Below, in pieces: positions 22,211 through 64,000 of a DNA stretch of 64,000 nucleotides. How positions within the stretch are numbered: the stretch's first letter is position 1; each line of letters opens with the position of its first letter. Source of the DNA: Chloranthus sessilifolius (lineage: Eukaryota; Streptophyta; Magnoliopsida; Chloranthales; Chloranthaceae); NCBI GenBank assembly GCA_021018995.1, contig CM037587.1, positions 67,909,604 to 67,973,603 on the forward strand. The letters run 5' to 3'. Both the position numbers and the translations under genes were made by a program. Under the pieces are notes generated by a model. The model searched no databases, had not been told where the DNA came from, and saw only the letters and a list, made by a program, of their open reading frames with translations.

Positions 22211-22223
22211 GCTTTGGCCTGCC

Positions 22224-25925: not shown

Positions 25926-25956
25926 TTAATACACATCTGAGCTGGACTTAGGGAAA

Positions 25957-38174: not shown

Positions 38175-38179
38175 GTAGC
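38175..38179. repeat. Target-site duplication of D, right copy
   Basis: GTAGC, identical to 25103-25107. Confidence 0.92.
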
Positions 38180-38280
38180 AAAGGATATCATCATTTTTAG
38201 GGATGTTTTTGGGCTACTGGGCTTGGAATGATGGCCTCTTTTGGGTGGTTCTTAAGCAGTCACGTATATGTTTCATCAAT

Positions 38281-38289
38281 ACTTACCTT
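38281..38289 (-). promoter_or_regulatory. Consensus splice donor just after C pol
   Basis: The minus strand reads AAG|GTAAGT a few bases after the end of the integrase frame. The same signal is at 61885-61893 in B. It might let the sense transcript skip the antisense gene block; no acceptor was identified. Confidence 0.4.
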
Positions 38290-38299
38290 ATCGTGATAG

Positions 38300-41480: not shown

Positions 41481-42290
41481 TGGTATGACCGAAGGAAGTC
41501 GATCATGCTTTTTCTTTCCTCAGGAGACAGTGACGTTCCGATTTTGGTTATCCTGGGAACCTCCTCAGTTCCTAGATTGACGTCTTCGGTCTCTTCGACA
41601 ATGGGGGTAGGGCCATACTCAAATTCGGCAAATCAGTCAAGGAGCTCATTGGGGAGCTCCTCGAAGGGGACATCCTCATCTAGACTCGTGATCCCTACCT
41701 CTTCTTGTATTTCTACAGGGAAGGGGTCGATTTCACGTGGGACGGGCATTTTGATTAAGGCACCCTTTTGTGGGACATTTTCTGGAATTTTAAATGACAA
41801 TATTTTTGGACTTTGGATTTTTTCAATGTTTTTGAGATTTTGTGTTTTTTGTATGTTTTTGAGATTTTGTATTTTTTTCATGTTTTTGAGATTTTTGTTT
41901 TCTTCGGAGACGGACCCTTGGCAATGCGAGTTTATGTATATACAAGGTATTGCCTGCCAAGGGCTTATCTCACTTTTTATAGGTTGTTTTTTTTTTGGGA
42001 AATGTGTGCCGAAGGTTAGGCCACTCCCCGCTTCTAGGGTTTGGGGCAAAGATGCCCAGTTGCGTACCTAAGGGGCCGCTTCTTTACCTATTGGGATGGA
42101 GGGTGCTGACTGATATTGCTCATTGGAGTCAACCTCCATCATATTGATCCCCATTTCGTTTGAGATCATGTCCTCAAATGATAACTCAGTTTTGTGGTGA
42201 TTCACCACAGAGGGGGCTTGTTCAGATACCGACCGTCGTTCTTCAAAAATGGACAATGCGGCCAAATCTGTCTCCAAGCTGGGAAGGGAG
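41481..42290 (-). pseudogene. Element C interdomain region between protease and RT
   Basis: Minus-strand spacer with low-complexity coding text (NLKNMKKIQNLKNIQKTQNL near 41870-41800) and an acidic stretch (EEVGITSLDEDVPFEELPNE near 41680). Ogre-type elements are known to carry an intron between protease and RT. A donor-like LTTAG|GTACGC spot near 42068 and an acceptor-like CCTGTAG near 41720 are possible, but weakly supported. DNA repeat ATGTTTTTGAGATTTTGTAT occurs three times at about 41828-41900. Confidence 0.55.
41828..41900. repeat. Short tandem repeat, ATGTTTTTGAGATTTTG unit
   Basis: Three copies of a roughly 30-bp unit with TGTTTTTGAGATTTTG on the + strand. It codes for the NLKN-type repeats on the minus strand. 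Confidence 0.8.
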
Positions 42291-42689
42291 ACTGGGGATT
42301 GGTGGGATGGACTAGGGCTTTGGGTTTGTGTGGGGTCAAATGGGTTGCCCCATTTCGATCAATCTTTATGACCCCTGCGCTGATAAAGGAATCTTTGATG
42401 TGTGGCCTAGGGCGAGGTTTCTCTTCTATGTTGATTCCTCGAGCTCTTACTACCGCGGTGACCCTGGCCTTTTCTTTGGCCTCTCGGACCTCTTGCTCTG
42501 TGGGCTTATATCCTAGCCCGAATCTTACTTTTTATCCCTTAGTCATAACTGGCTCTCTTCTGCCTTGTAATTTGGGTCCCATACCCCTTCCTTTCTAATA
42601 GCCCCACTTTTGGAGCATCACCACTGCTGCTACCATACCGCCTCCCGTTTTAGACATGATGCCCTCCATGGGTTCTGGGAGTATTGCCG

Positions 42690-43440
42690 ACAAATCGTAC
42701 TCGAAACTGTGGAGGTCGACGTCCTCTGCGGTGTGTGGTATATCTAGCATATTGGGATTTTTAATGCTATTGGTAGCCTTTTCTTTTTCACTGTGCCCCT
42801 CTCCAATGATCGTGATGATCTTGTGCCCAGATGCAAATTTGAGTTTCTAATGCAATGTGGAAGGTATGGCTCCGACTTCATGTAGCCACAGGTGCCCCAA
42901 CAACAGATTAAATGAGAATTTGATATCCATGACTTGAAACAAGATGGAAAAGGTCATTGGCCCTATCAATAGCTCAAGATCAACTTCTCCCATTATTTCT
43001 CTCCTGGTATTGTCAAACCCTCTAGCGCTGGTTCTGGTGGGCCTTAGCATGCACGGATCAACCCCGATCTTGGTGGCGGTTCTTAACGGGCATATATTCA
43101 ATGCAGACCCATTATCGATTAGTACCAAGGGGATAATCATATTTTCAAACTCAATGGTTATTTTTAAAGATTTTGAGTGGCTACCTCCTTCCTCAGGTAA
43201 ATCTGCATCAGAAAATGAAATGGCATTTGGAGCCATCACTTGACCAATTATCAGCCCGACTTCATCTGGGCTAACTTGGAGTGATACATGTGCATTTTTT
43301 AATGCCCCCACTAATGCTTGGAAATGGAGTGGGGACGTCATCAACAGATCCCATACAGTGATATGGACAGGCATTCTTTTGAGCTGAGTCTCCAGTATAT
43401 GTTCTCGACTCATCTTCTCGAAGGGGTTCACCGGGCTGTC
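42690..43440 (-). pseudogene. Element C protease
   Basis: Retropepsin-like protease on the minus strand. LVLIDNGSALNICPLRTATK has the DNGS active-site variant usual in Tat elements. It is followed by ARGFDNTRREIMGEVDLELL and FSFNLLLGHLWLHEVGAIPS. Upstream text (RMPVHITVWDLLMTSPLHFQ) is the conserved linker before the protease. It would process Gag-Pol. Broken copy. Confidence 0.85.
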
Positions 43441-43569
43441 TTTCTTTCCTTCGAGTTGGGCATGTGCTGCTGCTGGTGCTTCTGGCTGCTTTGATATCCT
43501 CCCTGACCTGGTAACAAAATCTACCGCCCCTTCTCTACTGTTGCTACCGGCATTGACATCTATCTGTTC

Positions 43570-44740
43570 GTAGCTTAGCGGGACTTGATGAGGATCATAT
43601 GTTGGTCCGAGAGATGGAGTGGTGTGGCAGCCGGTGCTTGAGATACTTGTATTGTCGGCTCAGAGGGCATGGGAAACACCTGATTTATTTTGGCGGTGGA
43701 GGGTTGGGAGGACAGATTGGGCCAAATAGGGATGGTAGAGCTTGAGGGTGGTGGTATTGGAGGGAAGGAGGTAAAAGTAGGCATTTGATAGCTAGTGGGT
43801 GCTGGCGGCAGATGGGGGGTCTGATGGGCCGTTAGGTAATTGATTGGGGTGGTGGAACTTGCCGGTGGTTGAGCTGGGGGTGATGGAGTGGGCGCAGGCC
43901 ATTTATAACTGATGGGCGTGGGTGTTGGATTGGGGGCCTTATGGCTTAAAGGGTAATCGATGGGGGCTGTGGTGTATGGTGGTAGTTGAAACAGGGTGGG
44001 CGCAGGCCATTGGTAACTGGTGGGTGCTGGTGTAGGATTGGGGGCCTATTGGCTCATCGGGTAACTGATGGGGGTTGTGGTGTATGGTTGGTATGCATTG
44101 ATATTCACATAATTGACGGGTGTGGGCAATGGAAAGTATGCCCTGAGATCCAAGGGTTCAATTTGTGGAGTCGAGTTGGAGAAATAATCTGACAAATTTA
44201 GGGGTTCAAATACCCCTATATTCCTCTCTTCAACTTTTCTTAACAACGGTGCTACATAACTCTCCCGATCACTGATGTAATCGGATGGGTAGAATTCTAA
44301 CTCCTCATCTTCTATCATTCTGATGGTGGGTCTGGGACCTGCTCCTCCGGTAGGATGTGGGGGTAGTGGTAATTGATGAATATTAGCATGCTGAGAAGGT
44401 GTAGGGGGAATGATTTTCCCGGCATCGATCAAATCCTGAATGGCATGCTTCAATGGGAAGCAGCGATCAGTAGGGTGACCCGGACCCTGATGAAAATTAC
44501 AGTGGGTATTTGGGTCATAGTTCTTTGGGATTGGGTGAGGAGGAGGTTCCCGTTGGCGGATAGCCACTAATCCCTTTTCTACTAACATGGGTAAAAGTAC
44601 ACTCAAAGATTGCCCAGAGGTGTAAAGACTCGGTCGTAGCGGGCTCTCCTCTGTTCCGGGTCATTTGCATTCCTTGCCCATACCCTGTTCTTTGCATCTG
44701 CTCAGGCCTAACTGGTGCTAGTGGGGCCGCCTAAAATTGA
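43570..44740 (-). pseudogene. Element C gag: C-terminal half with zinc knuckle
   Basis: Minus-strand text NYDPNTHCNFHQGPGHPTDR followed by CFPLKHAIQDLIDAGKI is the CxFHxxxGHxxDxC knuckle of Tat Gag and would bind RNA. A Pro-rich low-complexity part (43790-44090) follows, made of repeats such as NPTPAPTSYQWPAPT and APIDYPLSHKAPNPTPT-like units. It connects to the protease. Broken copy. Confidence 0.78.
43790..44090. repeat. Degenerate tandem repeat in C gag
   Basis: About three to four copies of a 120-bp-scale unit with GGGCGCAGGCCATT and GGTGTAGGATTGGGGGCC-like parts, encoding Pro/Thr-rich repeats on the minus strand. Confidence 0.6.
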
Positions 44741-44839
44741 AACGGAGCAGTATTATTATTGGGCCTGGTGTTGGCTATGTTCTGGACATCCTCCCCTGTT
44801 CTCTTCTCGTTCCTTTGCTTAGAAAATCTTCTGACCCTG

Positions 44840-45450
44840 CTAGGGCCCCCTGAGGTATTCTTACTCAACCGCCCTTCCCTGATGGCACCTCGCAGTGGTT
44901 GGCATTCCTCACCAAGTCAGCAAAACTAGACTGTTGTTGGTACACAAGGAAATCAGAAATCACTGGCAGAGTGTTCTTTGAAATCATCTCTATCTGCTCA
45001 TCATCCGGTATTCTATTTCTGACTTGAGCTGCCAGTGCTCTCCATCGCCCTAAGTAGTCACTGAAGGTCTCGTTTGGATTCTGCTTTAAACGGGCCAAAT
45101 CAGATTTGCACTATTCAATATCAGTATTATAGACATACTGTTCCTGGAATAAATGCGCTAAATCTTTCCATGTCTTCATCATGGATGGTTCAAGAGATGT
45201 GAGCTACCTCAGGGCCGGTCCGGTCAAACTTTTCTGAAAGACTTTTATTAGCAGTCTTTCATTCCCCTCGTATTGGCACATGCCCCCATAATAGGACTTG
45301 AGGTGTGTGATCGGGTTGCCTGTGCCATTGCACTTGTCGAATACTGGCATTTTATATTTGGGGGGCAAGGGGACCTCAGCGAATAGGCATAGGTCTGTAA
45401 AGTCTGTGGCGTGGATTTCAGTACCACCCATTTTCATCAGCTGTTTTTGT
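44840..45450 (-). pseudogene. Element C gag: core domain
   Basis: Retrotransposon gag domain on the minus strand: PLPPKYKMPVFDKCNGTGNP, ITHLKSYYGGMCQYEGNERL, VFQKSLTGPALR (45437-45204), then LKQNPNETFSDYLGRWRALA and AQVRNRIPDDEQIEMISKNT (45098-44950). This is the particle-forming part of Gag. Broken copy. Confidence 0.88.
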
Positions 45451-47268
45451 ATTTTGTTTAACTGTTCTTTTAGCTGCTCTGACTCTTTCGATATAGGGGC
45501 CGCTTTCTGTCACCGACTTCACTCGGGCTACTAGGGGTGGGCAATCGGTGGAGGGTTGAGGTTTAATGCCCCAAAGATAGGCCCCGTTGTTTCTAATCTC
45601 GTCCTCCTCATACTGCTGGTCAGCATAATGTGCAGTGAAGACGGGATTCTTGACTTGTTGCTGCATGGGTTGGATAGGAATGACATGAGTAGGGGTTGGG
45701 TGAGCCCATTGGGGGTGTGGAAAGGTTTATTGGGTGATGGGAATTTGGTTTTGAGGCGGGACTTGGTAAGGCCATTGGGTATGGGGGAAGGTTTGGAGAT
45801 GGCCTTGGGGTGTAGGTCCATGGGGGAATTGGGTTTGGGGGATGACATGGGTTTGACCCAGCTGTGAAGGTTGGGTTAAGTGTTGGGGGTATTGTGGAAG
45901 GTATGAGTGTGGGGTTTGGGTTTGGGCCATGAACCCTTGATCATTTTGGGTCATGGGCCACTGATATGTCTGGGCCATGGACCCTTGGTAGCCTTGGGCC
46001 AAGGGCCCTGGATAGGTTTGGGCCAATGGGCCTGGGTAGGTTTGGGCCATGGGTCCTTAGTGAGTCTAGCCCAATGGGCCTTGATGGGTTTGGGCCATGG
46101 GCCCTTGATGGATTTGGCCCAATATGCCTTGATGGGTCTGGCCCATGGGCCCTTTTTGGGTCTGGCCCAATGGGCCTTGTTGGGTCTTGGCCATGGTCCC
46201 TTGATGGGTCTGACCCGATGGGCCTTATTGGGTCTAGGCCATGGGCCATTGATGGGCCTTATTGGGTCTGGGCCATGGGCCCTTGATGGGTCTGGATTTG
46301 ATGGGTTTGGCTCAATGGGCCCTGGGGGACATGGGTAATGGGGTTTAGGGCCAATGGACCTTGGAGATGATGGGTAGTGGGTATTGGGCCATGGGGCCCT
46401 GGAGATCATGGATGGTGGGGTATTGGGTCATGGGGCCTTGGGGTATGTGGGTGATGGGGGTTTGGGTGGTGTGGATTATGGGGGGTTGATGGGGGTCATG
46501 GGGGAGTGAGGCATGGAGATTTGCTAGGGTATGGGATGGGTTCATGGGGTGTGGAGGAGAGGGGGTGTTTTGAGAAGCCTTCCATAAGGAGTAGGCTTGG
46601 AACATCTCCTCCATCATGGCCATGGAAGGAGGATGGGATGTGGATGGTGGATTTAAGGGTTGATGGGGTATAGATGGGATGGAGGTGGTGGAAAAATTGG
46701 GCATGGCCACGGTAGGTGGGGGTGTATGAGGTGGATGAGGGGATATATTTTGGGATGATGGGGGGCATGATGAGGGAGGATGAGGAAAATTGGGCATGGC
46801 CCTGGTAAAAATGGGCATGACCCGGGTTGATGGGGGGATTTGTGGGGGATCAGATAGGGCGGAGGTGGTGTATGTGAACGTGGGTGGATCGGGTCTATAT
46901 GGTGAAGATGGGAAATGGGGCATGGATGTGGGTTGAGAAAACGGGTTAGGGTTTTGTATGGGCATGGCTTGGGCAAAAGATGGGGAATGGGGGGTTGGAC
47001 TTTGGATATTTTGGAGGGTATCGGTTGGGAAAATGGGTGCGCCAAATGGGCCGGTAATGGTAAAGGGGGGTTGGGTGAGAGGGATGGTGGAAAAGACTTC
47101 TCCCGAATGGGAGTGGGTTGGAGAATGTGGTGGGGATGAGTCGGGATCGGCGTAAGCCGGGACCACTACCCACGACATTCTACGGGAGCGGGTCGGGTAA
47201 AGGTGCCTTGGATAAGGCCAAAAAATCCTCCTTTCCCTACGGGATGACGGAGGGCAAGATGATGCCAT
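45451..47268 (-). pseudogene. Element C gag: Pro/Gln-rich N-terminal region
   Basis: Long low-complexity N-terminal part on the minus strand. A possible start is MASSCPPSSRRERRIFWPYP at 47268, or MSWVVVPAYADPDSSP at about 47180. Pro/Ser/His-rich text follows, then repeats of the type GPLAQTYPGPMAQ (46450-45960) coded by a 24-bp minisatellite. An acidic segment near 45660-45470 (MQQQVKNPVFTAHYADQQYE) leads to the core. Low-complexity Gag N-termini are common in Tat elements. The true start is uncertain. Confidence 0.65.
45960..46410. repeat. 24-bp minisatellite in C gag
   Basis: About 18 copies of a 24-bp unit on the + strand, such as GGGTTTGGGCCATGGGCCCT plus TGAT, often alternating with a GGCCCAATGGGCC form. 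GGGCCATGGGCCC is nearly self-complementary. The unit is a multiple of three, so all minus-strand frames stay open and give octapeptide repeats. Confidence 0.85.
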
Positions 47269-47665
47269 TGTGCCGGCTCCACAAACTAAATATTTTTTGT
47301 GTTTTGATTATATATATATATATATATTTGAATTTTATGAAAACTTTTTGGAAAAACAAAGATTCTGAGGCCTTGGAATTCCCTTTTTGGGTGGCTCTCG
47401 TACATTAGTTCAAGACCCGCGGCGACGGTTTCGATGCACTTTGGAAGAATCGAACGAGAACCTTCGATCTATTGAAGATACGGAAATTGAGGCAGACGAC
47501 CCGATCCCCCGAAACGAGCTACAAAGAAGTTGCCTTCTCTTGACTGGTGGGGGCGTATTGGGTGTCGGAGATGGCGGGGCCTAAACAAGACACTATGCAT
47601 ACTGATCGGGGAACTCGGGAGGTGGAAAGGGCGAAGGATTCGGGTTGGGTGCTGCCAAACAGACC

Positions 47666-47784
47666 TGGCGCAACTAATACTTGCGCCCAGGTTGCAGGGG
47701 AGGACTTTTACACTGGTGCAACTATTAGTTGTGCCAGTTATAAAATCCAATGTTTTTACACTGGCGCCACTAATACATGCGCCA
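47666..47784. repeat. Palindrome array in C's 5' leader (3 copies, 48-bp pitch)
   Basis: C-family palindromes start at 47666, 47714 and 47762, exactly 48 bp apart. The outer two have a few changed bases in one arm. Confidence 0.9.
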
Positions 47785-48299
47785 GGCAAAAACTGCCTCT
47801 CCAGAACAGAGAACAGCAGCCACTGATGCCCGAAATAAGTCTCTTTTTGGTTTTTTTGTGGAAGCTAACCTTCTGGGAACTGAGCTGTTTTATGGTGATC
47901 AATTCTCTCCTTACCGCACCTAAAGCATTGAGTTCAGTATAACTCGCTAGCACGCTCCCCAAGGGTTTTAAACTTTGGAATGGGAACCCACCCAATATAC
48001 CTCCGGCGCAAGCACTTTCTCAGATACTAGGTGGGCTGGGACTTTTCTGGATCATCACCATTAGGGGCTGCCACCATACTAAGACTCGGGTGTTCGTATG
48101 TGTGCCTAAACCAATCCCTTTGAAAAATCTATCCCGCAAAACAAATTAATTAAGCTCCCTAACTTGGTTCAATTTTAATTTTTTTCAAAGCTTTTCTCTT
48201 TTTTTGAAGTTTTCTTTAGTTCAAAGACCGGGGGTGATTATCCCATGCCGCCACTACGGGCCGATGTCCACTGTTAGGATATGAATAATAAAAAAAGGC

Positions 48300-48625
48300 G
48301 GGGCCAGTCAAGCGACTAGGCGGGAAATATAAAGTGCTTAAATTTAAAAGGTGTCAGTCAAGTAACTAGGTAAAATTTGCTGAAATTTAAAGCGGAAACG
48401 TAGGGGTGAGTAAAAAAATGTGTCAGTCAAGTGACTGGGCAAAAATTGCTAAAATTTAAAGCGGAATCGTAGGGGTGAGTAAAAAAGGTGCCAGTCAAGT
48501 GACTAGGCAAAGATTGCTGAAATTTAAAGCGGAATCGTAGGGGTGAGTAAAAAAAGGCGCCAGTCAAGTGACTAGGCAAAGATTGCTGAAATTTAAAGCG
48601 AAATCGTAGGGGTGAGTAAAATGAC
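48300..48625. repeat. About 68-bp tandem repeat in C's 5' leader
   Basis: Five copies of a unit containing CAGTCAAGTGACTAGGC, ATTGCTGAAATTTAAAGCGG and TCGTAGGGGTGAGTAAAAA. Unit marks fall at 48305, 48355, 48424, 48492 and 48561. AGTCA and TGACT within the unit form a small inverted repeat. Confidence 0.88.
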
Positions 48626-48727
48626 GTAATTGGTGGGGTGAGTGACAAAAAAAATAAAAAATAGCAATAAATTAGAAAATATCAAAAATAACAAGGCCAA
48701 GTTCAAGGGGAAGCTCTACAAGCTACT

Positions 48728-48744
48728 CCCCAGTAGAGTCGCCA
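48728..48744 (-). promoter_or_regulatory. Primer binding site of C
   Basis: The minus strand reads TGGCGACTCTACTGGGG two bases after the 5' LTR. The TGG start pairs with a tRNA CCA end; the sequence resembles the tRNA-Arg-type primer sites of Ogre elements. Confidence 0.75.
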
Positions 48745-49453
48745 TCTGTGCAACCGTGGGAATCACGACGATGCGCTCTCTAATGATGAAAAATATAGAG
48801 TCGCCACCCAAAGCTTTCGGTGTACCGGGATACCTAGTTCATTTTTATGAGCACCTAAGTGCTAAAAATATGACTCTGAATCCGGTCTACACCAAAGGCT
48901 CTTGGGTAGGGGCTTCAGTTTTCGATCGGGAAGGTGTTAGGCACCCGATCAACCCGCTTAAAGCGGTCTCTACTTATGGCCAAAAATAAAATAATGTAAA
49001 AGCAAAGAAAATAGCTTCATCTTGCCCAAAAGGGCTTAGAATCCTATTTGTGCCCCTCCGTTCCTACCGAAAAATTGGCGGCGTAACGACACAAATGGGA
49101 GGATGGAGGGAGCTAGAAAGAGATAGGAGAAGAAAGGGGAGAGCCGGAGCTCTCGGGCCCTTGTAGCACCATAGAGGAGCCTTGCGTGGCTTGCTTTGAT
49201 GAGCTCTTGAAGGCCTTATATGGTGGAAAATGGGGTTCTAACTCCTAAGACTTAAAGCTAAGAGGTAGGGAAGGGAGGCTAGGGGATCACACACACCTAG
49301 GCTATGGGTTTTGGATGTAAAAACAAGCTTGGGAAGAGGTTTTGGAATTCTGGAATTTGGATGAAAATAGTGCACAAAAGGGAGGAAGAACTTCTCACTT
49401 TGAGCTCTTTCTCTCTTAAGCAAATTTCTCAACCCCTCAACCAAGGGGGGGGG

Positions 49454-49466
49454 CTCTATTTATAGG
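49454..49466 (-). promoter_or_regulatory. TATA box of C's 5' LTR promoter
   Basis: The minus strand reads CCTATAAATAGAG, about 280 bp below the palindromes in the sense direction. This would drive the genomic RNA. Confidence 0.7.
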
Positions 49467-49746
49467 AATGGAGTGGATTAGGAGGCTACTTAGATGCTAA
49501 TTGGGGTTAGCAATTAGGTAATCTCAAATCTAAGGTTTCCTAGGATTTTGAGAGCTTAGAAAGGTGTGAAGGTGGTTCTAATGGTGGATGATGGGGTGAG
49601 GCTTTAAGCCACTTGGAGGGTTGCAAATAGGTAAGGAATGGGTGCAACAGAACTATTAAAACACACCCCAAAGGTTGAGGTAGTCAACAAGTCAAACCCC
49701 AAACATGAATTTCGGGGCAAAAACCCACTGTTACTGTTCATATGCC

Positions 49747-49988
49747 TGGCACAACTAATAGTTGCGCCAGGCAAATGCACAGTAAAATAGTGAGGAACAG
49801 TGCTGGAAGTTAGCTCGCGGGGTGGGGGCCACCTTTTAAACTTGGCGCAACTATTAGTTGTGCCAGGCTTAAAATTAGGGAGGATTGGCCTGGCGCAACT
49901 AATAGTTGCATGTAGGCATTTATATCTGGCGAACTATTAGTTGCGAGCCAGCTACTGGGAGAATAGCTGCCGACTATTAGTCGCGCCA
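49747..49988. repeat. Palindrome array in U3 of C's 5' LTR
   Basis: Two clear copies start at 49747 and 49843 (96 bp apart). A partial copy starts at 49891 (48 bp on) and two decayed copies lie near 49929 and 49966. The layout matches the 3' LTR. Confidence 0.88.
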
Positions 49989-50321
49989 AATCCCTAGGAG
50001 GGCAACCTTGAAACTACCTTCCTGCCCTCAGGGTTCGGACTGCCATATCTTCTGATATATACCTCCGATTGGGGCAATTCTTGGTCCGTTGGAAAGCTGA
50101 CGACCTCTACTCTTTAGTGGTATAAGAGTTGGTCATTGTAGAGGGTCGTAGCTAGTTCTGGTGCACCCCTCCTTCTTATTACCTGGGAAGGTTAAAAAAG
50201 GGTTCTAAGGGTCAGGGTTGGTTTTTGGGGGATCTAGGGTGATTCCTAATCAAAAGCTCGAAAATGCGCCTCTCTCGAAATGTGTTTCGATCAGGCCTTG
50301 GGCCAAATTTTGGTGTCTACA

Positions 50322-50364
50322 TCTATTATCTTAAATCAGAATTTGGGAAAGTTTATTTACTTAT
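50322..50364 (+). other. 43-bp scrap between C and B, probably element A
   Basis: TCTATTATCTTAAATC... lies between C's outer end and B's LTR. It starts with TCTAT, matching TCTAC before C at 14369-14373 in four of five bases, so it is likely A's LTR resuming after C. Confidence 0.5.
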
Positions 50365-51065
50365 TGTGCGACCGTGGATCCAATCGAACCCGTTGCGGCG
50401 ATGCGCTTGCCTTTAATGAAAATGTAGAGTAGTCACCCGGAGCTTTTGGTGACCCGGAAAACCTTCAAATCGATATTTTGACCACCGAAGTGCTAAATAT
50501 GACTCTGATTTACCGGTCTTTGCCAAAGGCTCTAGGTTAGGGGCTTCGGTTATCGATCGGGAAGGGTTTAGGCACCCGATCAACCCGCACATAGCGGTCT
50601 CTATCTATGGCCAAAATAAAAATAAAAAGGGCGGAGCTTCCCCTTGCCCGAAGGCAATACGATCCTATCAAGCTTTGAGCCAAACCGAAATTTCGGCGGC
50701 GTAACGGCTTGAATCCTTGGACGGAGGAGACACCAAGAAGGTAGAGGAAGAGAGGGGTGAGCCGGAGCTCACGGGCCCTTGTTGCACCGTGGAAGATCTT
50801 AGCTTTGGCATGCTTCCGATGGCTTAAATGGTGTGAAAATGGGTTCTAATGCTAGGATTCGGTAAAATAGGAAGTGTAGGGTGAGGTTAAAGGCTAGACT
50901 TTAGCAAAAGGGAGTGATCTAATGGTGGAAATGGGTTGAAGGGGATGAACTAAGCATTCTGGAATTCTGGGAAAATGTGTGCATTTTCTCTCACTAGGGT
51001 TCTCTCTTAAGCTCCAAATCCTTAACCTCAAATTTTTTCCAACCCTTAAGGAAGAGGGAGGCCTC

Positions 51066-51078
51066 TCTATTTATAGAG
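51066..51078 (-). promoter_or_regulatory. TATA box of B's LTR
   Basis: The minus strand reads CTCTATAAATAGA, at the place matching C's TATA box and about 275 bp below the palindromes. Confidence 0.7.
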
Positions 51079-51353
51079 AAGGGATGGGTTAGGGGCTTAC
51101 TTAAGAGCTAATTGGTTTAGCAATTAGGTAATCCCCCATCTAAGGTTTTTTGTGTTTTCAAGGTCCTAGGGTTTTGGGAAACTGGTTTCAATGGCGGATG
51201 ATGGGGTGAGACCATGGGTGACTTAAGGGTTGCCAATAAGCTCAAAGGGGGTGCAACCAATCTCAAGACACCCACCTCAACCAAGGGGATGGTCAAAGGG
51301 TCAAACTAGATGGAGGAAATTCGAGCTATTGATGACAGTTACTGTAGCTAAGC

Positions 51354-51572
51354 TGGGCGTATATATTATATACGCCCAGTTTAGGAACAGTAAACTTCAC
51401 CAAAAATAGGGGAGCCTTGAGAAGATGAAGCCCGTGCCGGGTCCCACCTATGATGGGCGTATATATTATATACGCCCGGCCAAATTTCCCCCAAAATAGG
51501 CAGGCGTATATAATATATACGCCTGACTAATCGGGGGCTAAATTGGCTGGGCGTATGTAATATCCACGCCTG
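51354..51572. repeat. Palindrome array in U3 of B's LTR (4 copies)
   Basis: 25-bp palindromes: arm TGGGCGTATATA or CAGGCGTATATA, one central base, then the reverse complement. Centres are at 51366, 51466, 51513 and 51560, so spacing is 100, 47 and 47 bp. The last copy has changed bases. Confidence 0.92.
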
Positions 51573-51957
51573 CCTAAAATCTATGATTTTATGTGAAACT
51601 TAAAATGGCCATAACTTTTGAACCGTAGCTCCAAATTGGGTGATCTTTGGCTCGTTGGAAAGCTGAAGAAGTCCTATTTCCAATGGTATATGGCTCATCT
51701 ATGGTACTAATCTGTGTGAAATTTTGTAACTCTCCTCCCATCAACTGCCAGAAGGGTTTAAGTTAGGTCTGGGAAGGGATTCTAGGGTGTAGGGGTGACT
51801 TCTAAGGATTGGAGGAATGGCTCTAAAGGTTTTAGGGTGATTCCTATTGGTCTAGATAGGTTCTTAAGGGTTCAGGGGGGTGCCATCGGAAGCACAGGGG
51901 TACATCTCTCCCGAAGTATAGATTGATCGGGCCTTGGGCCGAATTTGGGTGTCTACA

Positions 51958-52002
51958 GATGCCCCTCTTTGGTATTCGATCACTAATGATCGGATGCCAA
52001 AG
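51958..52002 (-). promoter_or_regulatory. Polypurine tract and adjoining hairpin of B
   Basis: In the sense direction a hairpin at 52002-51967 has 16-base arms, 14 of them Watson-Crick paired, and a 4-base loop. It runs straight into AAAGAGGGGCATC and the LTR start. Confidence 0.82.
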
Positions 52003-53910
52003 ACAAGAGACATCCGAAGAGGTCCAAGGCACATTTGATGGGTCCGCCTGGTTCAACTCAATTATCAAACATTCATGGTGATGGTGAGTGTACGTAAGCC
52101 CTCTCATTTCGGGATATCGTTCGTACCTCAAAGCTAATAGTCCCCAAGCGCATTGCGACATTACTGGGCATAACTGCGATGATCACAGAAAGTGTAAACC
52201 CGCTAGCCGGGATATCATCCACTTCCTGAGGGAAATTATAGATTTGTGATGTTTGAGTATTAATCTGAACCAGACAGCTCCATGAAACGGGATGATCGAT
52301 CTATGCTTCGGAATTGATGCGAAGCATACAAAGCGAAGGCCTTCAAACTGTCTCCAATCCTATGGAATATCGACAGCTCCATTGGATTGGGCACGGGTGC
52401 CCTTACCTAGGTAAGGCTCAAAGTTTCTGGGTGAACCCATCAACCTTGAGGTTGCTTTAGCATGATTGACCCGAGTGGAGCGAATATTGATGTCGCAACA
52501 CCTCTTGGGAATGCATGCCCATTTTTCGAGTAATTTTTTGTGTAATTTTCTGAATTTTCTTTTGTTTCGAGGCCTCTAAGCAGAGCTCGATGACCTCTGA
52601 CAACTTTATTTTTGCACAACTCTTTAAGTGGATCAAATGCCAGTTGATACGCTTTTAAGAGTGCGTGCACCATGCCGGGGATAGGGGCACCTTGGGGATG
52701 TGCATGTTCCAGTGGTGAGGTGCTCCTGGTTCACATGGACCGGAGTGCCTTAACTTGAGACAAAGCTGAAAAGATCGGTCTAGGACCAATCACCCCTCGA
52801 AAGAGATGGCCAATTCTAGCCTCCATCCCTAATGAAATCACATCTTACTGACTATGCACAGACAGACACCCATCAGGGGCGATAAGCAGTAAATAGGCGT
52901 GAATAGAAGCCTCGACCCTAAGGTACAATTTACGAGGACAACGACCATCCTGCGGATACCCAGATGCAAGTGTGTACATTCAACAGGGACACCGTGCCTA
53001 TACAGGTTTTAAGCCTGTGTAAAAGGAAATAAAAAGAGAAAAGAGCCCTTTGGTCTATATGTTTGCACATAGTTTGGTTGGTTGTAATTTCATTTTTGAC
53101 GGGTCAGTTTCAACTGACAATAGACTTTTCGAATGGTCTGAAATCGGGGGCACTCTTGGTCAACATAGATCCGAAGGGCGATGACCAGAGTGAATGGTGG
53201 AAGGTGGGGTCAACCCACTCAGGATTTTTTACGAAGCAGCAACAAGTTGTTATTTCTTCTCCCCTTCTTTTTTTTCTTTTTTTCTTTTTTCTTTTTTTCT
53301 TTTTTTTGTTTTGATTGAGACTCCGGGCATGCTCAAACTGCCTTTATTTTTGCACGTATCCTTAGGCGAATCAACTTGTCATGTTGATATACCTTAGGGA
53401 CGTGTGCATTCCGGTGATGGGTTCTTGGTTTGCCTGCCGGATCGGGCCTTGACTCTTGCTGGGGGACTCTGTAGGGAACAGTGACCGGAGATGGGCAAAA
53501 TTACTTGCCTAAAATGGGGTTCGAGAACTTTCGGGTGAACCCGATTATTCCGAATTGATTTAACACGGCTCTCGGAATGGGGCAAACAAGCATTGCGACG
53601 CTCTTTTGAGAACCAGCGTTGTATATATTATATATTTTTTTCTTTTCATTATTATTATTTTTTTATTCTCTTTTTTTGATTTTATGGGCGCATTAGGTGG
53701 GCGCCTACAAATCTAGATCCGTTTATTGTACCATGGTCCCTTTGGGCCAATCGAAGGAAACTCGAAGGGTCACTTGGGGACGCGTGCACCATGGCCAATG
53801 ACACGTGGGCCTCGAAGGGGGGTCCGGATCGAGGTCCATAGCATACAAGGGGGCCGTTGGGCCTTAAAATCGAAAGAGGGAGGTCGGGTAGTTTAAAAAC
53901 TACCATTTTT
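52003..53910. other. B 3' untranslated region
   Basis: No gene is recognised. Blocks near 52143-52180 and 52923-53018 match C's 3' untranslated region. T/C tracts lie at about 53262-53310 and 53628-53675. Confidence 0.6.
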
Positions 53911-53913
53911 GGT

Positions 53914-53986
53914 CGAGCGTATATAATATATACGCCTGACCAAAATCTGGCGAAAAATGGTCAGGCGTATATATTATATACGCCCA
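53914..53986. repeat. Palindrome array upstream of B antisense unit 1
   Basis: Two B-family palindromes centred at 53926 and 53974 (48 bp apart). The position matches C's array at 17780-17899. Confidence 0.9.
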
Positions 53987-54201
53987 TCTAAAATCTGGCA
54001 GTTACGAAACTACCCGAGCCCGAGCACAAAAGGGGCCCCCCTTTTCAAATTCCCTCTTCCTCCCTCCCTTCTTCTTGAGTCCGGGACAACCTCTTAGGGT
54101 TTTTTCATTTGATTTGGCTTGAGTTCTATTACCGGCGGTCGCGGGTGTGGATCGAAAGGCGCTTATCCTCCGCCGCTATTCGTTTTTCTCCCCCATTGAA
54201 G

Positions 54202-55206
54202 GTAACCATTACCTTCCCTTACTTTCCCTTTGCATTTTGATAATATTACTATTTGATGCTTTTCTTTTTCTCTCTCTTGTTTTTTTTCTTTTGTGGTGAA
54301 ATGTTTTTTTTTCATTTTCATTTAAACATATGTGATGCCTATGTTCCTTTCTCTTGGTTTTGTTTTTGTTGTCTTCCTTAGGCCTATTTTTTTTCATCTA
54401 TCACTTATTCATCTCATCCTATTTTCTCTTTCTTTTTTGTTTCCGATGGATTAGTGCATCTTATTTTTTTGGATTAGTACACTCGCACATGATTTTTTTT
54501 TTTTTTTTTGTACACACACACATCTCTTTCTTGGATTGGTACCTACACACACATGGTTTGTTTTTTTTTTGTTTTTAGTACACACACGCATCTCTTTTTT
54601 TTTTTTTTGGATTGGTATATACACATGGGTTTTTTTTTTGTTTTTAGTACACACACGCATCTTTTTTTTTTTTGGATTGGTATATATACATGGGTTTTTT
54701 TTTTTTTTTTAGTACACACACACACCTCTTTTTTTTTTTTGGATTGGTATATACACATGGATTTTTTTGTTTTTTAGTACACACACACCTCTGTTTTTTT
54801 TTTTTTGGATTGGTATATACACATGGTTTTTTTTTGTTTTTTAGTACACACACACCTCTCTTTTTTTTTTTGGATTGGTATATACACATGGGTTTTTTTT
54901 TATTTTTTAGTACACACACACACCTCTCTTTTTTTTTTTTTGGATTGGTATATACACATAGTTTTTTTTTGTTTTTTAGTACACACACACACCTCTCTTT
55001 TATTTTTTGGATTGGAATATACAGATGGTTTTTTTTTTTTTTTAGTACACACACACACACACACCTTTTTTGTGGTTCGGATTGGTATATACACATGGTT
55101 GTTTTTTTTTGTTATTTCTTTTGGGATTAGTGTATATATACATTTTTTCTTTCTTCCCTTTTTTGTTGGCAACCTTCTCATATGCCGATGCGTCTCATAT
55201 TTTCAG
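54202..55206 (+). other. First intron of B unit 1, in the 5' untranslated region
   Basis: Borders GAAG|GTAACC and TTTTCAG|G lie just before the ATG at 55208. It is mostly filled by the tandem repeat at 54500-55100. C has a T-rich intron at the same place. Confidence 0.7.
54500..55100. repeat. About 65-bp tandem repeat inside B intron 1
   Basis: Eight or more copies of a unit made of a T-run, GGATTGGTATATACACATGG, a second T-run and TAGTACACACACAC. GGATTGG marks fall at 54609, 54674, 54741, 54807, 54872, 54942, 55009 and 55079. Open frames across it on both strands are artefacts. Confidence 0.9.
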
Positions 55207-58047
55207 GATGTCTGGTGACGAAGGGCATGATTGGCAAGAAGGGCCGGAGATGGCCTATGGCCCCCGTTGGGAACAGTTCATTGTGTCTCAGCGCTCCTCC
55301 CAGCCTTGGTATGAGATGCAAGGCGAGGCCGCCCACACCGGCCTCCTCTACTGCCAGCACACCCATATGTCCAACTTTGGGATTGTTGGTCAGGTAAACA
55401 GATGGGCCCCCTCCTCCTTTCCGCTTTTGTTTTCCTTTGATGCCCTCATTATACCTCCCTGCCCCTAACTGATTGATGCCTTCTGCTTGCAGCCCCTGCC
55501 GCACATTATGTTCCGAGGCAGTTGGTTTGACCTCCAGCGTCTTGTGCTTTACCTTCCCCCAGTGGTGAAGGACCTACTCACTGCTGTCGGTTTTGGGGAC
55601 TTCATTTCGTGCCCCGCTATAAGGGCTGACACGGCCTATTTAAAGGCACTGATAGAGCGTTTCCACCTCGAGACGATGACATTCCACATGGCCATGGCAA
55701 AGATGGCCTTCACACCGGCGGACTGGTCTATGATCACCGGGGTCCGTATCGGAGGGGTGCCCGTGGTACCTACCCGCACACCGGGTAGGGAGGAGGTGAT
55801 TCAACTGCTAGGGGCCTACCCATCCTCAGGGAATGTTCGGGGCTCGGAGGTCAAGCTATCCTGGTTGGTTGATCAGTTTGGGCCTAATGAGTTGGTGGAC
55901 CAGGGGCAGCAGCCTGACATGGACATTTACATCGAGCCTGCGCGCACACTTATGCTGGCCCGCATCTCCTTACTGTTCCTCCTGGGCAAGACTCTCCTCT
56001 CCAACACTAGTGGAGGGCGAGTCTCCTTGTCCCTGCTCAACCTAATGGTGAACTGGGAGACCGTGCATCGATTCGATTGGGGTGGCGCTGGCTATGCCGT
56101 ACTCATGTCCAACCTAAAGCAGGCCGTTCTTGGGGAGTCTAACTCCATTGTGGGTTTCTGGCCTGCCATTGAGGTATTTTATCTTTTGGATTTAGTTTAT
56201 TCAATTTTCTTTTATAGCATACCTGTCCTCATCTGCCTGCTTTCTCAGGTCTGGGGGTACCTTCACTTTCAACCTAGTCGCCCTCTGCTTCAGTCCGACA
56301 TTGCTACATTCCCCCTCATGAGTAACTGGCACGTGGGTTGCCGTCAGGACGTAGGTATGAAGCATTTGGAGTTAGGACTGCGCTCTCAGTTCGGACTATT
56401 GATCCCAGAGCTGGTAAAACAATTCCCTTTTTATAAATTTGACAGCTCAGCTCCTGTGTGCTAGAGGTTCTGACCAAATGTGTGCATCCCCTTCCGATTT
56501 TCTCTTCTTTCGCAGGTCATCCTCGACCCTTACATAGGATCTCCCTTCTGGAATTTGGCCTCGGTGGGTCCTCTTTTCTTTGCCGTCATTATCATCTTTC
56601 TCTACGGGTCCTGGACTAGGGCCTACTACTTAGGGGAGAGAGCGGTTCATCAGTATCGCCTTCTCTTTGTCGTGCCCCAAGCTCCTCCTGTCGATGTGTT
56701 GGCCCCAGAGGGCTCCATCGATGAGCTCACTGCTCACTTTCTTCATCATGGGGTTCCTATCGATTACCTTCTCCTGCCCGGGGGGTATCAGTCGTGGTAC
56801 GACTCCCTGCCCTATCATTTCTTGCTGCCCTGCTTCATGCCTGGTGCTAACTTTCTAGCTTTTGGCGGGCCGCGATCTCAGGTAATGCCCCTTCTCTCCT
56901 TTCATTCAGCAGCTTTCATGTGGTTACTTTGATTGACCTGTCGCCCTTAATGATAAAATGTTTCTCTCCATAGTTTGAGCAGGGCGGCGACTCAGATGAG
57001 GGGGAAGAGGTGCCCGTTCCCTATGATGCAACAGGTGCAGGACCCTCCGATCCTTCCGGGGCTGGTGCTTCTGGCGTGGCTTTAGGTGCTGGACCCTCTG
57101 ACCCTTCTGGTGCCGGTGCTTCTGGTAGCTCGCCCGTCGAGGTCCAGGGGACCTTCAAACGCCTGGATGATGCCTTTTTGTCACGCGTGTGTGCCGACGT
57201 GGCCGAGAAAGCACGAATTTCTGCTGAAGCTATCTAGATCCCACCTCCTGAGCTGATTCCTGGGGTAATCCCTATCTTGTTGCTCTGTTCTCTTTCCCTT
57301 TGAATTATGCTGATGGCCTGTGTGACTAACACCTCCTTTTTCTTACTGGCCAGGATTATGAGTCGGCAGTGAGTCAGGCCGAATACTACCATAATCTCGT
57401 TGACCTTAGGGAGACCGAAGTGGTGAGTGAATGCTGGCCCAACCTAGTCATTTTCCTTGTTTACTTTCTGCCTATTTCTCTATTTGATGGCTTTTGGTGT
57501 GCCTTTACAGCGTGCTCGTGAGAAGGAGTCGCGCTCCTTGCTTAGCCGTATCTCTCAGGCATGGACTCGGGTGGGGGAGACCCGTACCTTTCAAAGTGCG
57601 AGCCGGTGCCGGAAGAAGTCGAAGGGGGCTGCCCAGGACTAGTTTATTTTCTGCAAAAGTGGACACAATGAGATAATTTAGACTTTTGATTTATATGGGA
57701 TATGTAATAACTTTAGACAACAACAATCTCTTTTTTTGATGGTTTTATAATTTTCATGGTTCATGCGACTGTTTTATTTGGTTATCTCTTTGCTTTGGTG
57801 GTTTCCTCTCTCTTTTTCTTACTTGGAATGAACTAGCGCCTCTCTAATGATGAGGTTGATCATGCAGGTGACTCTCCGTATGTGACCTATGGGCGGCGCG
57901 CCACCCGAGGGTTTCTCATGGGTGTGTGATTATGTGCGCCTGTGAGCTGCCCTGAGATGAAGAAGTGGGCCAAGCAGAAACATGTTCCTCCTTGGGCACA
58001 AAAATGGGCCAATGTGAGGGGGGGGCTTGCTGGGCCCTGGCTTAAAA

Positions 58048-58167
58048 TGGGCGTATATATTATATACGCCTGACCAATCCTCAGTAAAAATGGCCGGGCG
58101 TATATATTATATATGCCGAGCAAAAATGGTTCAAAATTTGCCTTGGCGTATATAATATATACGCCTG
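58048..58167. repeat. Palindrome array between B antisense units (3 copies)
   Basis: B-family palindromes centred at 58060, 58107 and 58155 (47 and 48 bp apart). The position matches C's array at 22044-22210. Confidence 0.92.
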
Positions 58168-58341: not shown

Positions 58342-59825
58342 AATGGGCCTGCCTTCAAAAGGGGGCCCAAGCTTTATCTGGGGCGGTATACTTCCTGCTT
58401 TGGACCCGGGGCCCAGCTTTTTGCAAAAATGGCATGATAGTTTGGCTGAGAGCGAGCTTTCTATTCTGAATGGCCTGGGGTTGTCCCGCCTTTCCTCTCT
58501 CCTCGCTGTTCCTCTGTTGCCCAACCTACTACAGGCTGCTTTGGCATCATGGGACCATAGGGCCCATGTCTTTAAATTCTAGGGAGTTGACCCCAACTTT
58601 GGAAGCGCTAGCCTCCATCACTGGCTTGAAGATGCATCGAGGCCTTGCCAAAGTAGTGCCCAAACCGGGGTATGCAAAGGCGGTCCACGCGGTCCTTGGC
58701 TTAAAGAAGGGTGGATACGAGAAATGTTTCGCCGGAGGGCCCACCAGGTGTTCGGTGAAATTCCTGAGAGAACTTTTTGGTGACTCGAGCCTTCGAAAGT
58801 TGCCTATTCAAGATCCCTTCAATGTGAAGGCCTTTGCCCTTTATTTGCTGTCGAGAGTTCTCTTCTTCACTGGGGGTGAGAGCTTTTCCCTTGGGCTATG
58901 TGATGTTTTGATCGAATTGGAGGGAGGTCGCTCATTGGTACACCTGGTCTTGGAGGAGATGTATCGAGGCCTGGATGCTGCGGCCTCGGGCCAGGTTGGG
59001 ATTCTCAGCGGGAGCCCGCTCCTTGTTCAGATCTGGTTAGGAGAGCATTTGGCTATCATGGGGCCTGTGCCGAGATTCTACTTGATTAGAGGGGATGTGG
59101 CTCGGGGTTTTCTGATCCGGAGTTCGAGACTGCCTGGTGGGAGCATCGAGGAACTGAGCCTGTCTATCGATGCTGAGCCGACTGCGCTTCTGGATGGACG
59201 ACACCTTTCCGATTGTCCGCTCTCGGGATTGTGAGGGCATCACACTTTTGGGGCTGACTGTAGTACATACTACTTCCCATCTCAGGTGCTCCGTCAATTC
59301 AGGTATGCTCAGCATGTGTCGTGTATCACGAGGCCACCCTTGTGCTCTCTGATATTCTCTCGCAGTTCTCTTTGTGATCTTGATCGCATAGCTGCCCTCT
59401 GGGAAACCCGCCAATTGGCGCATATGTGTAGCTTGGTTCAGGGGGGCGTCGTCTCTCCGGGTTACGAGGGCTGGCTGGTATCTGAGGAATTACCTACTCC
59501 TAGCCCAGCATCGGTAGATGTGGTGGAAACAGGGCCCTGGCCATGTAAGGAAGCGATGCTTCGAACCCGGATCGAGTCCCTTTCCGTAGAGAGGCAGGCT
59601 TTGGAGAAAGAAAGGGTCAGAGCTGATATTGCGGAGGTGAAAGCCGCTACAGCCGAGAGCGAGGTTCTTCGGTTGACTGGTCTTTTGACTGAGTCCCGCA
59701 GCGCAGCTGAAGCTTCACAGAGACGGCAGAAGAGTTTTCATGGTAGGTGGATGTCTGATCGAAATGCCCGCGAGGACTCCCTGCTTGCAGAGATTAGCGC
59801 TTTGAAGCGTGCTCCCCGCCCTTGA
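58342..59825 (+). pseudogene. B antisense unit 2: DUF7745-like protein with coiled coil
   Basis: Second gene opposite to pol; start MGLPSKGGPSFIWGGILPAL at 58342. Domain text: FLQKWHDSLAESELSILNGL, RELTPTLEALASITGLKMHR, FAGGPTRCSVKFLRELFGD, FNVKAFALYLLSRVLFFTGG and PLLVQIWLGEHLAIMGPVPR. This order fits the DUF7745-type domain found in plant mobile-element proteins. The C-terminal third (about 59540-59820) is a charged heptad-like coiled coil ending LLAEISALKRAPRP. It is collinear with C unit 2, with the palindrome array and TATA-like box just upstream. Few or no introns are evident. Family call by eye; broken copy. Confidence 0.68.
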
Positions 59826-61903: not shown

Positions 61904-62990
61904 CTATGAGTAGAACTTACGGAGGTATCCAGCGTTGATGGGCTCAGGAAAGTGGTCTCCGTCCATGGTGGCGAGGCGAACGGCGTATCCTGGCAGAACC
62001 TCTCGGAGGACATAGGGTCCTTCCCAATTTGGCCTAAACTTCCCTCTCAGATCGGCGTGGAGAGACGGAAAATTTTTCTTCAGTACAGTGTCTCCTACCT
62101 TCAGATCTCGGCCGCGGACGCGGTTATTGTAAGCACGTGCAATTCTCCTCTGATAGACCTGAGTGTGGCATAAGGCTAGGAGTCTTTTCTCGTCAATCAA
62201 GTCTAGCTGTTCAAAACGGGCTCTTTCCCTCTCAGCTTCAGGTAGATGGGAATCTAAAAGGATACGGAGTGACGGTACCTCGACCTCAACGAGTAGCACG
62301 GCCACGGTCCCATACACAAGGGAGAATGGTGTTGCCCCTGTTGCGGTGCAGATAGATGTTCTATAGGCCCAAAGTGCGAAGGGTAACTGCTCACTCCAAT
62401 CTCTGTAAGTAACTACCATCTTCTCCAGGATGCGGATCAGAGTTTTTTTGGCTGCCTCTACTGCTCCATTCATCTGAGGCCTGTTCGGGGATGAACGATG
62501 ATGCTTGATCTTAAACCGCTCACACAAGGCCCGGATGCGCCTATTAGCGAAATTAGTGCCCTTATCAGTAATGATATCTTTGGGTACGCTGAATCTACAA
62601 ATGATGTTGTTCTTGATGAACTTCTCAACATTGCTAGCCTTAATGCTCGTATAGGAGGCCGCCTCTACCCATTTTGTCAAGTATTCCACAGCGACGAGGA
62701 TGAATTGATGTCCATTGGTAGCCTTAGGATTGATCTTCCCAATGACGTCAAAACCCCAGGTGGTGAACGGCCAAGGAGTGGCCATGCTGTGCAAGTCAAT
62801 GGCCGGAGCATGTATTTGGCTGGAGTGCTCTTGGCATTTGTAGCACTTCTGTACGTGCTTGCAGCAATCAGTCTCCAAAGTAGCCTAAAAGTATCCTTGC
62901 CTTAGAATTTTCTTAGCAAGCATGTGACCGCTGATGTGGGCTCCACAGACCCCTTCATGAATCTCCTTCATGATCTCAATTGCTTCTTTC
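61904..62990 (-). CDS. Element B pol: integrase
   Basis: Largely open integrase on the minus strand. Zinc-binding HEGVCGAHISGHMLAKKI and HVQKCYKCQEHSSQIH. Core motifs TPWPFTTWGFDVIGKI, KDIITDKGTNFANRRI, and NRPQMNGAVEAAKKTLI carry the two aspartates and the glutamate. Then [20 protein letters not shown] and the C-terminal domain FRPNWEGPYVLREVLPGYAV, ending YLRKFYS at 61904. It would insert the element's cDNA. This is the best-kept pol part of the three Tat elements, though the element as a whole is treated as a fossil. Confidence 0.9.
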
Positions 62991-64000
62991 TGGGTTAGGC
63001 ATCGGAGCAGAATATTGTCGTGAGACCGTCTATACAGGAGATCGCCGCAGATGACGTAGTTTGTTGCCAATCGCTGGATGGTGCGCTTGTCTACCTTTGA
63101 TGTTCCTTCCGGGATAGTTCGGGTCTCGAGGAAGTTCTTGATGTCTGAGAACCAGGGTGGTTCATCCTCTATCTCCATAGGTCCTTCGATCAGGTGACAG
63201 AAAGCCGGTTCACTCCTCTGCTCTATCATGATCGGCTTCATCACCACTCCATATGGAATCTCGACCATAGAGGCTAGGGTAGCCAGGGCGTCAGCAAACC
63301 GATTTCTTGCTCGTGGCACATAAGAGAAGGTGACTTCCTCAAAGCAGGTTATCAGATCCTCCAGATGTTCATGGTATGGGATCAGTTTCTCATCCTTGGT
63401 CTTCCAATCCCCGTTGGTTTGGCATATAATTAACTGTGAATCTCCAAAGACCCTAAGGTGAGTTATATTTAGATCAAGAGCCGCCTGTAAACCAGCTGTA
63501 CAGGCCTCATACTCGGCCATATTATTGGTGCATGGGAAGTTCAATTTGATTGAGATGGGTATATGGGATCCTTTCGGCGAGATAAGAATGGCGCCAACTC
63601 CTTGGCCCATAACATGCGATGCCCCATCAAAGTGCATTACCCAGGGCTCCTTCGTTTCCTCTGTATCCTCGTCAGTCATGAACAAAATGTCTTCATCAGG
63701 GAATTCGGTCCTTAGAGGCTCATAGTCCGGCAGAGGGTTCTCAGCAAGGTGATCGGCGAGTGCTTGCCCCTTAATCGACTTCTGGGTGACATAAGTAATG
63801 CCAAACTCGGATAGGAATAGTTGCCAACGTGCGATTCGGCCAGTGAGAGCAAGTTTCTTGAATAGGTACTTTAACGGATCCATCCGTGCTAGAAGTAGAA
63901 CGGCCTGGGATAACAGGTAGTGTCGAAGTCTCTGAGTAGCCTAAACGAGCTCCAGGCATGCTTTCTCCAGATGAGAATAGCACGTCTCGTAATCAGTGAA
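62991..64000 (-). CDS. Element B pol: dual RNase H region (continues outside)
   Basis: Minus-strand text from the right edge. The end of the RT-linked RNase H (ACLELV-type, then MDPLKYLFKKLALTGRIARW) is followed by the Tat-type second RNase H: VMHFDGASHVMGQGVGAIL, NNMAEYEACTAGLQAALD, LRVFGDSQLIICQTNGDW, and RARNRFADALATLASMVEI. The acidic residues of an RNase H active site (D, E, D, D) are all visible. The connector to the integrase follows near 63200. RT lies outside the window. Confidence 0.88.

Follow-up and report, generated by a model that had tools for sequence, protein, structure and literature searches.

What holds short palindromes alike at several distant places of a retrotransposon, and what might read them, is the question raised by a 64,000-nucleotide stretch of the 2.17-Gb genome of Chloranthus sessilifolius (C4:67909604-67973603; hereafter, the window). 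The window encompasses two long terminal repeat (LTR) retrotransposons of the Tat clade, denoted C and B, that lie end to end on the minus strand, C then B, and carry antisense genes of the plant mobile domain (PMD) superfamily. In both elements, arrays of palindromes are present at four places, namely, U3, before antisense gene 1, before antisense gene 2, and in the gag leader. From the sequence analysis reported here, we consider it probable that these palindromes are operators for an element-encoded, family-specific dimeric DNA-binding regulator, most likely, one or both of the antisense PMD-superfamily proteins.

The arrays are located as follows:

51354..51572, B U3 array, centres 51366, 51466, 51513 and 51560
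53914..53986, B array upstream of gene 1, centres 53926 and 53974
58048..58167, B array upstream of gene 2, centres 58060, 58107 and 58155
15389..15642, C U3 array, centres 15401, 15497, 15545, 15583 and 15630
17779..17851, C array upstream of gene 1, centres 17791 and 17839
22043..22211, C array upstream of gene 2, centres 22055, 22103, 22151 and 22199, also identified by TRF
47665..47785, C leader array, between the 5' LTR and gag, centres 47677, 47725 and 47773
Centres 49758, 49854 and 49902 (the last with 3 changes), copy of the U3 array in the C 5' LTR

The B palindrome, GGCGTATATA-W-TATATACGCC, has arms of 10 bp on either side of one central A or T. All nine centres that the first-pass annotation of this DNA had reported in B are present, six matching the 21-bp motif exactly and three with changes (3 at 51560, and 1 each at 53926 and 58107). 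The pitch of 47–48 bp with one 100-bp step, as originally described, agrees with the measured steps of 100, 47 and 47 bp in U3, 48 bp before gene 1, and 47 and 48 bp before gene 2; at the skipped slot, near 51413 in the B U3, there is no palindrome. The arms had been taken to be 12 bp long, but the constant arm is 10 bp, and symmetry at +11/+12 is only 33% in B. The one-to-one correspondence between the places in B and those in C was confirmed and extends to the fourth array: the B leader array was predicted from C and then found at 71485/71526/71566 (window coordinates, outside the window). In this copy, the leader array is degenerate, its sites departing from the B motif at 5, 3 and 5 positions and having a pitch of 40–41; in a second B copy, nested beside an element of family E, the leader contains two sites spaced by 47 bp, both with perfect 10-bp arms (464 and 511 in locus L067). 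A chance origin of the B palindromes is excluded: exact palindromes with arms of at least 10 bp, whatever their sequence, number 12 in the window, whereas none of 10 first-order Markov shuffles had more than one; across 5 shuffles of this type, B-motif matches allowing up to 4 mismatches averaged 0.0. In the entire genome, 8,687 sites match the 21-bp B palindrome and none matches its reversed control.

Tabulation of 18 half-sites from B and 28 from C (leaving out the duplicates in the C 5' LTR) yields the consensus TATATACGCC for B and TAGTTGCGCC for C, which differ at +3, +4, +6 and +11 and are the same at +1, +2, +5 and +7 to +10. Thus, the frame and the centre are shared between B and C, as originally observed, but are not the only shared features, given that T at +1, A at +2, T at +5 and an outer C.AA at +14 to +17 are common, too. 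When the arrays within an element are compared, the identity of the palindromes is 94.6% in B (26 pairs) and 91.5% in C (71 pairs), whereas that of the neighboring DNA is 47.2% and 38.7%, respectively (30.6% for random comparisons). Because the palindromes are alike and the spacers are not, homogenization of whole units cannot explain the sameness, and array-wide homogenization as its sole cause was rejected. The arms contain 19 changes (14 in C and 5 in B), of which 8 represent CpG transitions; none is mirrored in the other arm, so that arm-to-arm copying in decaying copies was rejected as well.

The identity between B and C is 66.5% in the LTR body, 76% at the LTR start and 68–70% in the exons; for the DNA directly adjoining the palindromes, it drops to 41.5%, compared with 30.6% for randomly chosen places. 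The first-pass claim that the flanking DNA remains alignable therefore holds for the LTRs and the exons but mostly not for the DNA immediately beside the palindromes. The proportion of synonymous differences (pS) between B and C is 0.745 in the gene 1 exon (163 codons) and 0.697 in gene 2 (124 codons), near saturation; the corresponding ratios of nonsynonymous to synonymous divergence (dN/dS), 0.085 and 0.134, which are rough as dS is saturated, indicate that the antisense proteins are under purifying selection. With synonymous sites near saturation, neutral DNA would be hardly recognizable, so that the layout, pitch, frame and symmetry kept despite a pS of 0.70–0.75 are most simply held by selection, in support of the original proposal of selection on a symmetric site.

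The common frame, GCGNNNNTAWTANNNNCGC (GCG-NNNN-TA-W-TA-NNNN-CGC), is present at 48,037 sites genome-wide, compared to 154 in the reversed control. Among the first 50 framed sites listed, which come from the start of one chromosome, are not representative and include several that look like chance sites, 25 have identical arms, and 23 of these are GTTG. We further identified gene-2 loci with a DUF7745 search (117 matches), cut out the best 30 loci, and collected the sites in the 1.5 kb before gene 2 that had a TA-W-TA centre and GC at +8/+9 in both arms, ignoring the tetramer. The 44 framed sites obtained come from 23 of the 30 loci, and 36 of these sites carry an identical tetramer in the two arms; when the arms were re-paired over all loci, with the relatedness of the loci uncontrolled, 2,000 shuffles gave a mean of 12.2 and a maximum of 21. 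The 36 symmetric sites carry GTTG (19), TACA (6), CATG (5), CACA (4) or TATA (2), TATA being the tetramer of B and GTTG that of C. Neighboring sites (n=21 steps) are 48 bp apart in 11 cases and 47 bp apart in 5. Loci L046 and L048 contain a near-palindrome with a different centre, CTTGCGTATATTTTATATACGCAAG.

A different palindrome, CGATTAATCG, is clustered in 17 exact copies downstream of the PMD match (130 bits) in locus L032 (2900–3700; C13, near 20473257) and absent from the other 29 PMD loci; possibly, this is an independent PMD-linked palindrome array.

The framed arrays are positioned regularly with respect to predicted promoters. For 24 of the 30 gene-2 loci (the remaining six lack a clear array and were left out), distances were measured from the last site listed: a TATA sequence follows at 25–60 bp in 17 loci, compared to 11% of random windows, and at 36–41 bp in 14. 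In one of these 17 loci, L065, the TATA falls inside a further palindrome, and several other gene-2 loci have A/T-rich variants in similar GGG...CCCGAG surroundings. In the window, the following TATA-like sequences are relevant:

~58193, TTATAA of B gene 2, by eye
~22237, TATA-like sequence of C gene 2, by eye
51065..51076, minus strand, B sense TATA box CTATAAATAG, with the first T of TATAAA at 51075, common to the C LTRs
15107, sense TATA box of the C 3' LTR

The distance from the last gene-2 site to the TATA is 39 bp in B and 38 bp in C, as measured by eye. The U3 array lies 291 bp upstream of the sense CTATAAATAG in B and 294 bp upstream in both C LTRs; among several TATA-like sequences found, CTATAAATAG is the sole one common to all three LTRs. 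By their placement, the arrays look like upstream promoter elements.

The candidate readers are encoded on the strand opposite to pol:

55208..57642, plus strand, B antisense gene 1 (bounds and exons by eye; open reading frames (ORFs) 55469-56464 and 56474-56932; PF10536, 4.3e-22)
58470..59825, plus strand, B antisense gene 2 (two ORFs; PMD superfamily, PF10536, 1.9e-6, below the cut-off)
19580..20071, plus strand, main PMD exon of C antisense gene 1 (PF10536, 2.6e-12; 58% identical to B)
22552..23016, plus strand, exon of C antisense gene 2 (55% identical to B; PMD 0.12 and DUF7745 0.16, not significant)

All seven gene-2 relatives in the genome that were picked for the absence of stops gave PMD and DUF7745 matches that cover one and the same stretch, and therefore, gene 1 and gene 2 belong to one superfamily. 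Protein homolog searches with both antisense genes gave no matches at E 0.001, a PDB sequence search gave none up to E 1, and the exact B and C palindromes had no occurrences in viral contigs. By eye, comparison with C indicates an in-frame stop at 57228–57240 in gene 1 of the B copy in the window.

If palindromes are read by proteins of this kind, palindrome type and antisense protein are expected to change together, and for gene 2, this comparison could be made across the 30 loci. We labeled 26 of the 32 rows of the gene-2 tree by their main tetramer (L040, L041, L046, L048, L055 and L056, with no clear type, were left out). The labels require 6 changes on the tree, where the least possible number is 5 and the shuffled mean is 12.4, with none of 200 shuffles as low. 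GTTG (13 rows) forms one group (0 of 500 shuffles as low), and TACA and TATA are clustered as well (8 and 12 of 500 shuffles as low, respectively). On the midpoint-rooted tree, the order is TATA, TACA, CACx, TACA, an unresolved set of TACA/CACA/CATG, CATG, and GTTG, which would be largely steps of 1–2 bases per half-site. The co-changing reader that the first-pass annotation had put forward is the best explanation when taken as an element-encoded protein, but shared descent supplies part of the link.

We propose that the half-site TA-NNNN-CGC would combine a constant frame, TA and CGC, with four middle bases that serve as a family address. A dimer of PMD-superfamily proteins would read the half-sites, the reader being the product of gene 1, that of gene 2 or a heterodimer; binding, dimerization and the identity of the reader are what we infer here. 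A single protein could jointly switch or shield every promoter of the family it belongs to, sparing other families, and both activation of transcription and removal of DNA methylation, as with the VANC proteins of VANDAL transposons, would be compatible with the data. As families diverge, the reader and the half-sites would shift stepwise, with mixed-half sites as possible intermediates. A more general version, in which Tat elements use a modular self-recognition code such that a PMD dimer, perhaps a distant relative of VANC, reads the address and keeps the promoters active against silencing, and new families emerge as the address drifts stepwise via heterotypic sites, is offered only tentatively, as we are inclined to doubt it in this full form.

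Several observations weigh against the operator reading. No framed site was found in the 1.5 kb upstream of gene 2 in 7 of the 30 loci, and 8 of the 44 framed sites have unlike arms. In the gene-2 tree, 11 of 23 inner branches are weak, 6 of the 32 rows were dropped from the test, and CATG (3 rows) and CACA (2 rows), taken singly, are unclustered (500 of 500 shuffles as low); the link between tetramer and tree is partly due to common descent. The structure model of the PMD exon, built from an alignment of B and C pieces, is uninformative, with a mean pLDDT of 35. Symmetry and concerted change are not strict either, considering that sites combining a C half with an F half amount to 734 + 793 = 1,527 genome-wide, with 0 in the control. 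In an element of family F (L057, L069, L071), U3 contains one F/F site and two C/F hybrids. For family D, a C-type LTR lies 7.6 kb upstream of L039, and the adjoining DNA has no homology to the window elements, so that no assignment could be made; two 1.3-kb stretches upstream of L058 and L060, in which the gene-1 array was looked for, contain neither an array nor homology. The DUF1985 domain, carried by VANC and named for it according to the accessible text of PMC5735166, gave matches at the same end of the profile in 5 of 6 shorter PMDs, namely, B gene 1 (7.4e-4, over 55493-56173), L024 (1.4e-4), L027 (3.4e-3), L016 (0.028) and L029 (0.22), all of them below the curated cut-off, and the four loci, picked for the absence of stops, may be close relatives of each other. 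There was no DUF1985 match in the C fragment or in the three full-length PMDs L005–L007. Furthermore, L016 and L024 also match Corona_NS2A (0.005 and 0.0099) and DUF2272 (0.07 and 0.08), which are surely unrelated; because such families match two loci about as weakly, we give the DUF1985 match less weight.

The concerted replacement at all sites that had been claimed at the outset is complete within B and C, where all four arrays are of a single type in each element, and only partial in E and F. In E, the gene-2 array is CACA (L061), one site 4.2 kb upstream of gene 2 has the arms AACA/CACA, and U3 is cut off by the nested B element. In F, the gene-2 array is CATG twice, and before gene 1, there are one decayed F site (by eye) and one F/C hybrid. 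Mixed sites are common between the C and F types, and among the approximately 100 C/F hybrids listed, all but 5 have the centre A with the C half to its left (counted by eye), an orientation that would fit a heterodimer of the gene 1 and gene 2 proteins. In a 16-kb segment elsewhere in the genome (C1:35533408-35549821), all five framed sites listed have unlike arms.

The palindromes could instead be bound by host transcription factors, with different families having recruited different factors. Plant LTR promoters commonly rely on such factors, and the arrays stand where upstream promoter elements stand, but the same frame, centre, pitch and places, together with the graded tetramers across families, fit one diverging reader family better, so that we consider host factors rather unlikely; a single host reader shared by all families would not explain the different addresses, given that all these families reside in one nucleus. 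We see little prospect for the possibility that the arrays are merely tandem repeats of the hypervariable 3' region, homogenized by template switching or illegitimate recombination and devoid of a regulatory role. Tat elements are indeed known for hypervariable tandem repeats between pol and the LTR, according to the accessible portions of PMC7004042 and PMC11963269, but here the palindromes are alike between arrays and the spacers are not, arrays are found in U3 and the leader too, and the distance to the TATA is often fixed. Neither would homogenization produce the symmetry, and no arm change is mirrored (0 of 19).

Two further explanations assign the palindromes to the transcript or to the host. 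As RNA hairpins in the sense transcript, involved in packaging, dimer linkage or processing, they need not be DNA sites at all: by position, all four arrays can be in the sense RNA, and inverted repeats would be expected, on general grounds rather than from folding, to form hairpins. A single-base centre gives no proper loop, however, and the spacing of 47–48 bp and the distance at which the arrays precede the antisense TATA point to DNA (decay and G-U pairing are indistinguishable here), making hairpins improbable in our assessment. The prospect that the sites mark the element for host silencing, through methylation at conserved CpGs or small interfering RNAs, and are kept for that reason appears slimmest: although a CpG is kept in the frame of each arm and CpG transitions, typical of methylated DNA, account for 8 of the 19 arm changes, such a target would be expected to disappear, not to persist at 48,037 sites whose two arms have changed alike.

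The two elements that carry the putative operators have the following layout:

14358..50321, minus strand, C element, with at least one further element nested inside
14358..15993, minus strand, C 3' LTR (14403-15993 vs 48762-50321, 92.4% identical)
48762..50321, minus strand, C 5' LTR, bearing the U3 array copy
50350..51959, minus strand, B 3' LTR, from self-comparison; the B element runs past the window edge
~72405-74000, beyond the window (L036), B 5' LTR (L036 6010-7603 vs 50365-51957, 96.4% identical)
61904..63940, minus strand, B pol, with RNase H, RVT_3-type RNase H and an integrase ORF in turn

The assignment of B and C to the Tat clade stems from the LTR pairs around gag-pol, from a second RNase H (RVT_3, putative aRH type) between the first one and the integrase, and from the antisense extra ORFs between pol and the 3' LTR, the PMD genes being on the plus strand and pol on the minus strand. 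In B, the domain search identified RT_RNaseH and then RVT_3 at 63940–62885, and the integrase ORF that comes next was recognized by eye. Judging from the available text of PMC11963269 and PMC6317226, PMD is found in 57% of Ogre elements and Transposase_28 in 23% of Retand elements, and by PMC6317226, the PMD points to Ogre rather than Retand. A probable LTR element is nested in C, with LTR-like ends at 25100–25654 and 37500–38069 that are 93.9% alike (window 25100–38069). The B element contains a 67-bp T-rich/CA-rich tandem array before gene 1 (9.6 copies, 54464–55110) and a 61-bp tandem array between gene 2 and pol (9.7 copies, 60169–60766), a 24-bp piece of which recurs in the F locus L069.

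Among the known systems, VANC and VANDAL offer the closest layout, with a transposon-encoded protein (a candidate in our case) and family-specific short motifs, in tandem, in non-coding element DNA; in the accessible text of PMC5735166, VANC motifs are described as tandem arrays that differ between related VANDAL families. Unlike the LTR retrotransposons B and C, VANDAL is a MULE DNA transposon, and the VANC21 motif, YAGTATTAY, is an oriented 9-mer, whereas the sites described here are odd palindromes with a constant frame at retrotransposon promoters; the word stem 'palindrom' does not occur in the portions of PMC5735166 and PMC10398659 that could be searched. The VANC parallel drawn in the first-pass annotation thus stands with regard to layout, and the sequence link through DUF1985 is weak, although remote PMD-VANC homology is possible. 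DUF287 is not listed among the domain matches of the PMD proteins. Independently of this comparison, the DUF1985 profile has 150 scored matches in the genome, many with open frames.

With Ogre and Retand, the elements have in common an extended region that separates pol from the 3' LTR, ORFs in antisense orientation, tandem repeats and the second RNase H before the integrase. The tandem repeats of those elements, in contrast, are family-specific and of a function stated as unknown in the part of PMC11963269 available. The satellites in the 3' untranslated regions (UTRs) of Ogre/Tat elements are likewise short arrays in the same region, but their monomers vary in sequence and length, as far as the accessible text of PMC7004042 goes, whereas the families described here agree in the 47–48 bp pitch and in the frame. 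In the searchable text, 'palindrom' appears only in a reference title of PMC11963269 and nowhere in PMC7004042, and the literature searched, which most subscription papers lie outside, contains no mention of palindromic arrays in Tat elements, nor, within it, did we encounter the target sites, their code or their placement. From the passages available to us, a review states that the function of the plant mobile domain is unknown and suggests that element PMDs may serve counter-silencing (PMC8616336), and a survey published in 2025 attributes a possible regulatory role to the Retand antisense proteins, with the function of the antisense TRP28 proteins of Retand stated as unknown (PMC11963269).

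If the more general version of our interpretation holds, the plant mobile domain, including host MAIN/MAIL1, would gain a concrete activity, sequence-specific DNA binding. The sites and the antisense genes are joined here in one testable system that comprises some 48,000 sites, five or more address types within one nucleus and a tree of candidate readers. These findings raise the question whether VANC-like self-recognition arose outside the VANDAL transposons and whether PMD proteins bind DNA in a sequence-specific manner.

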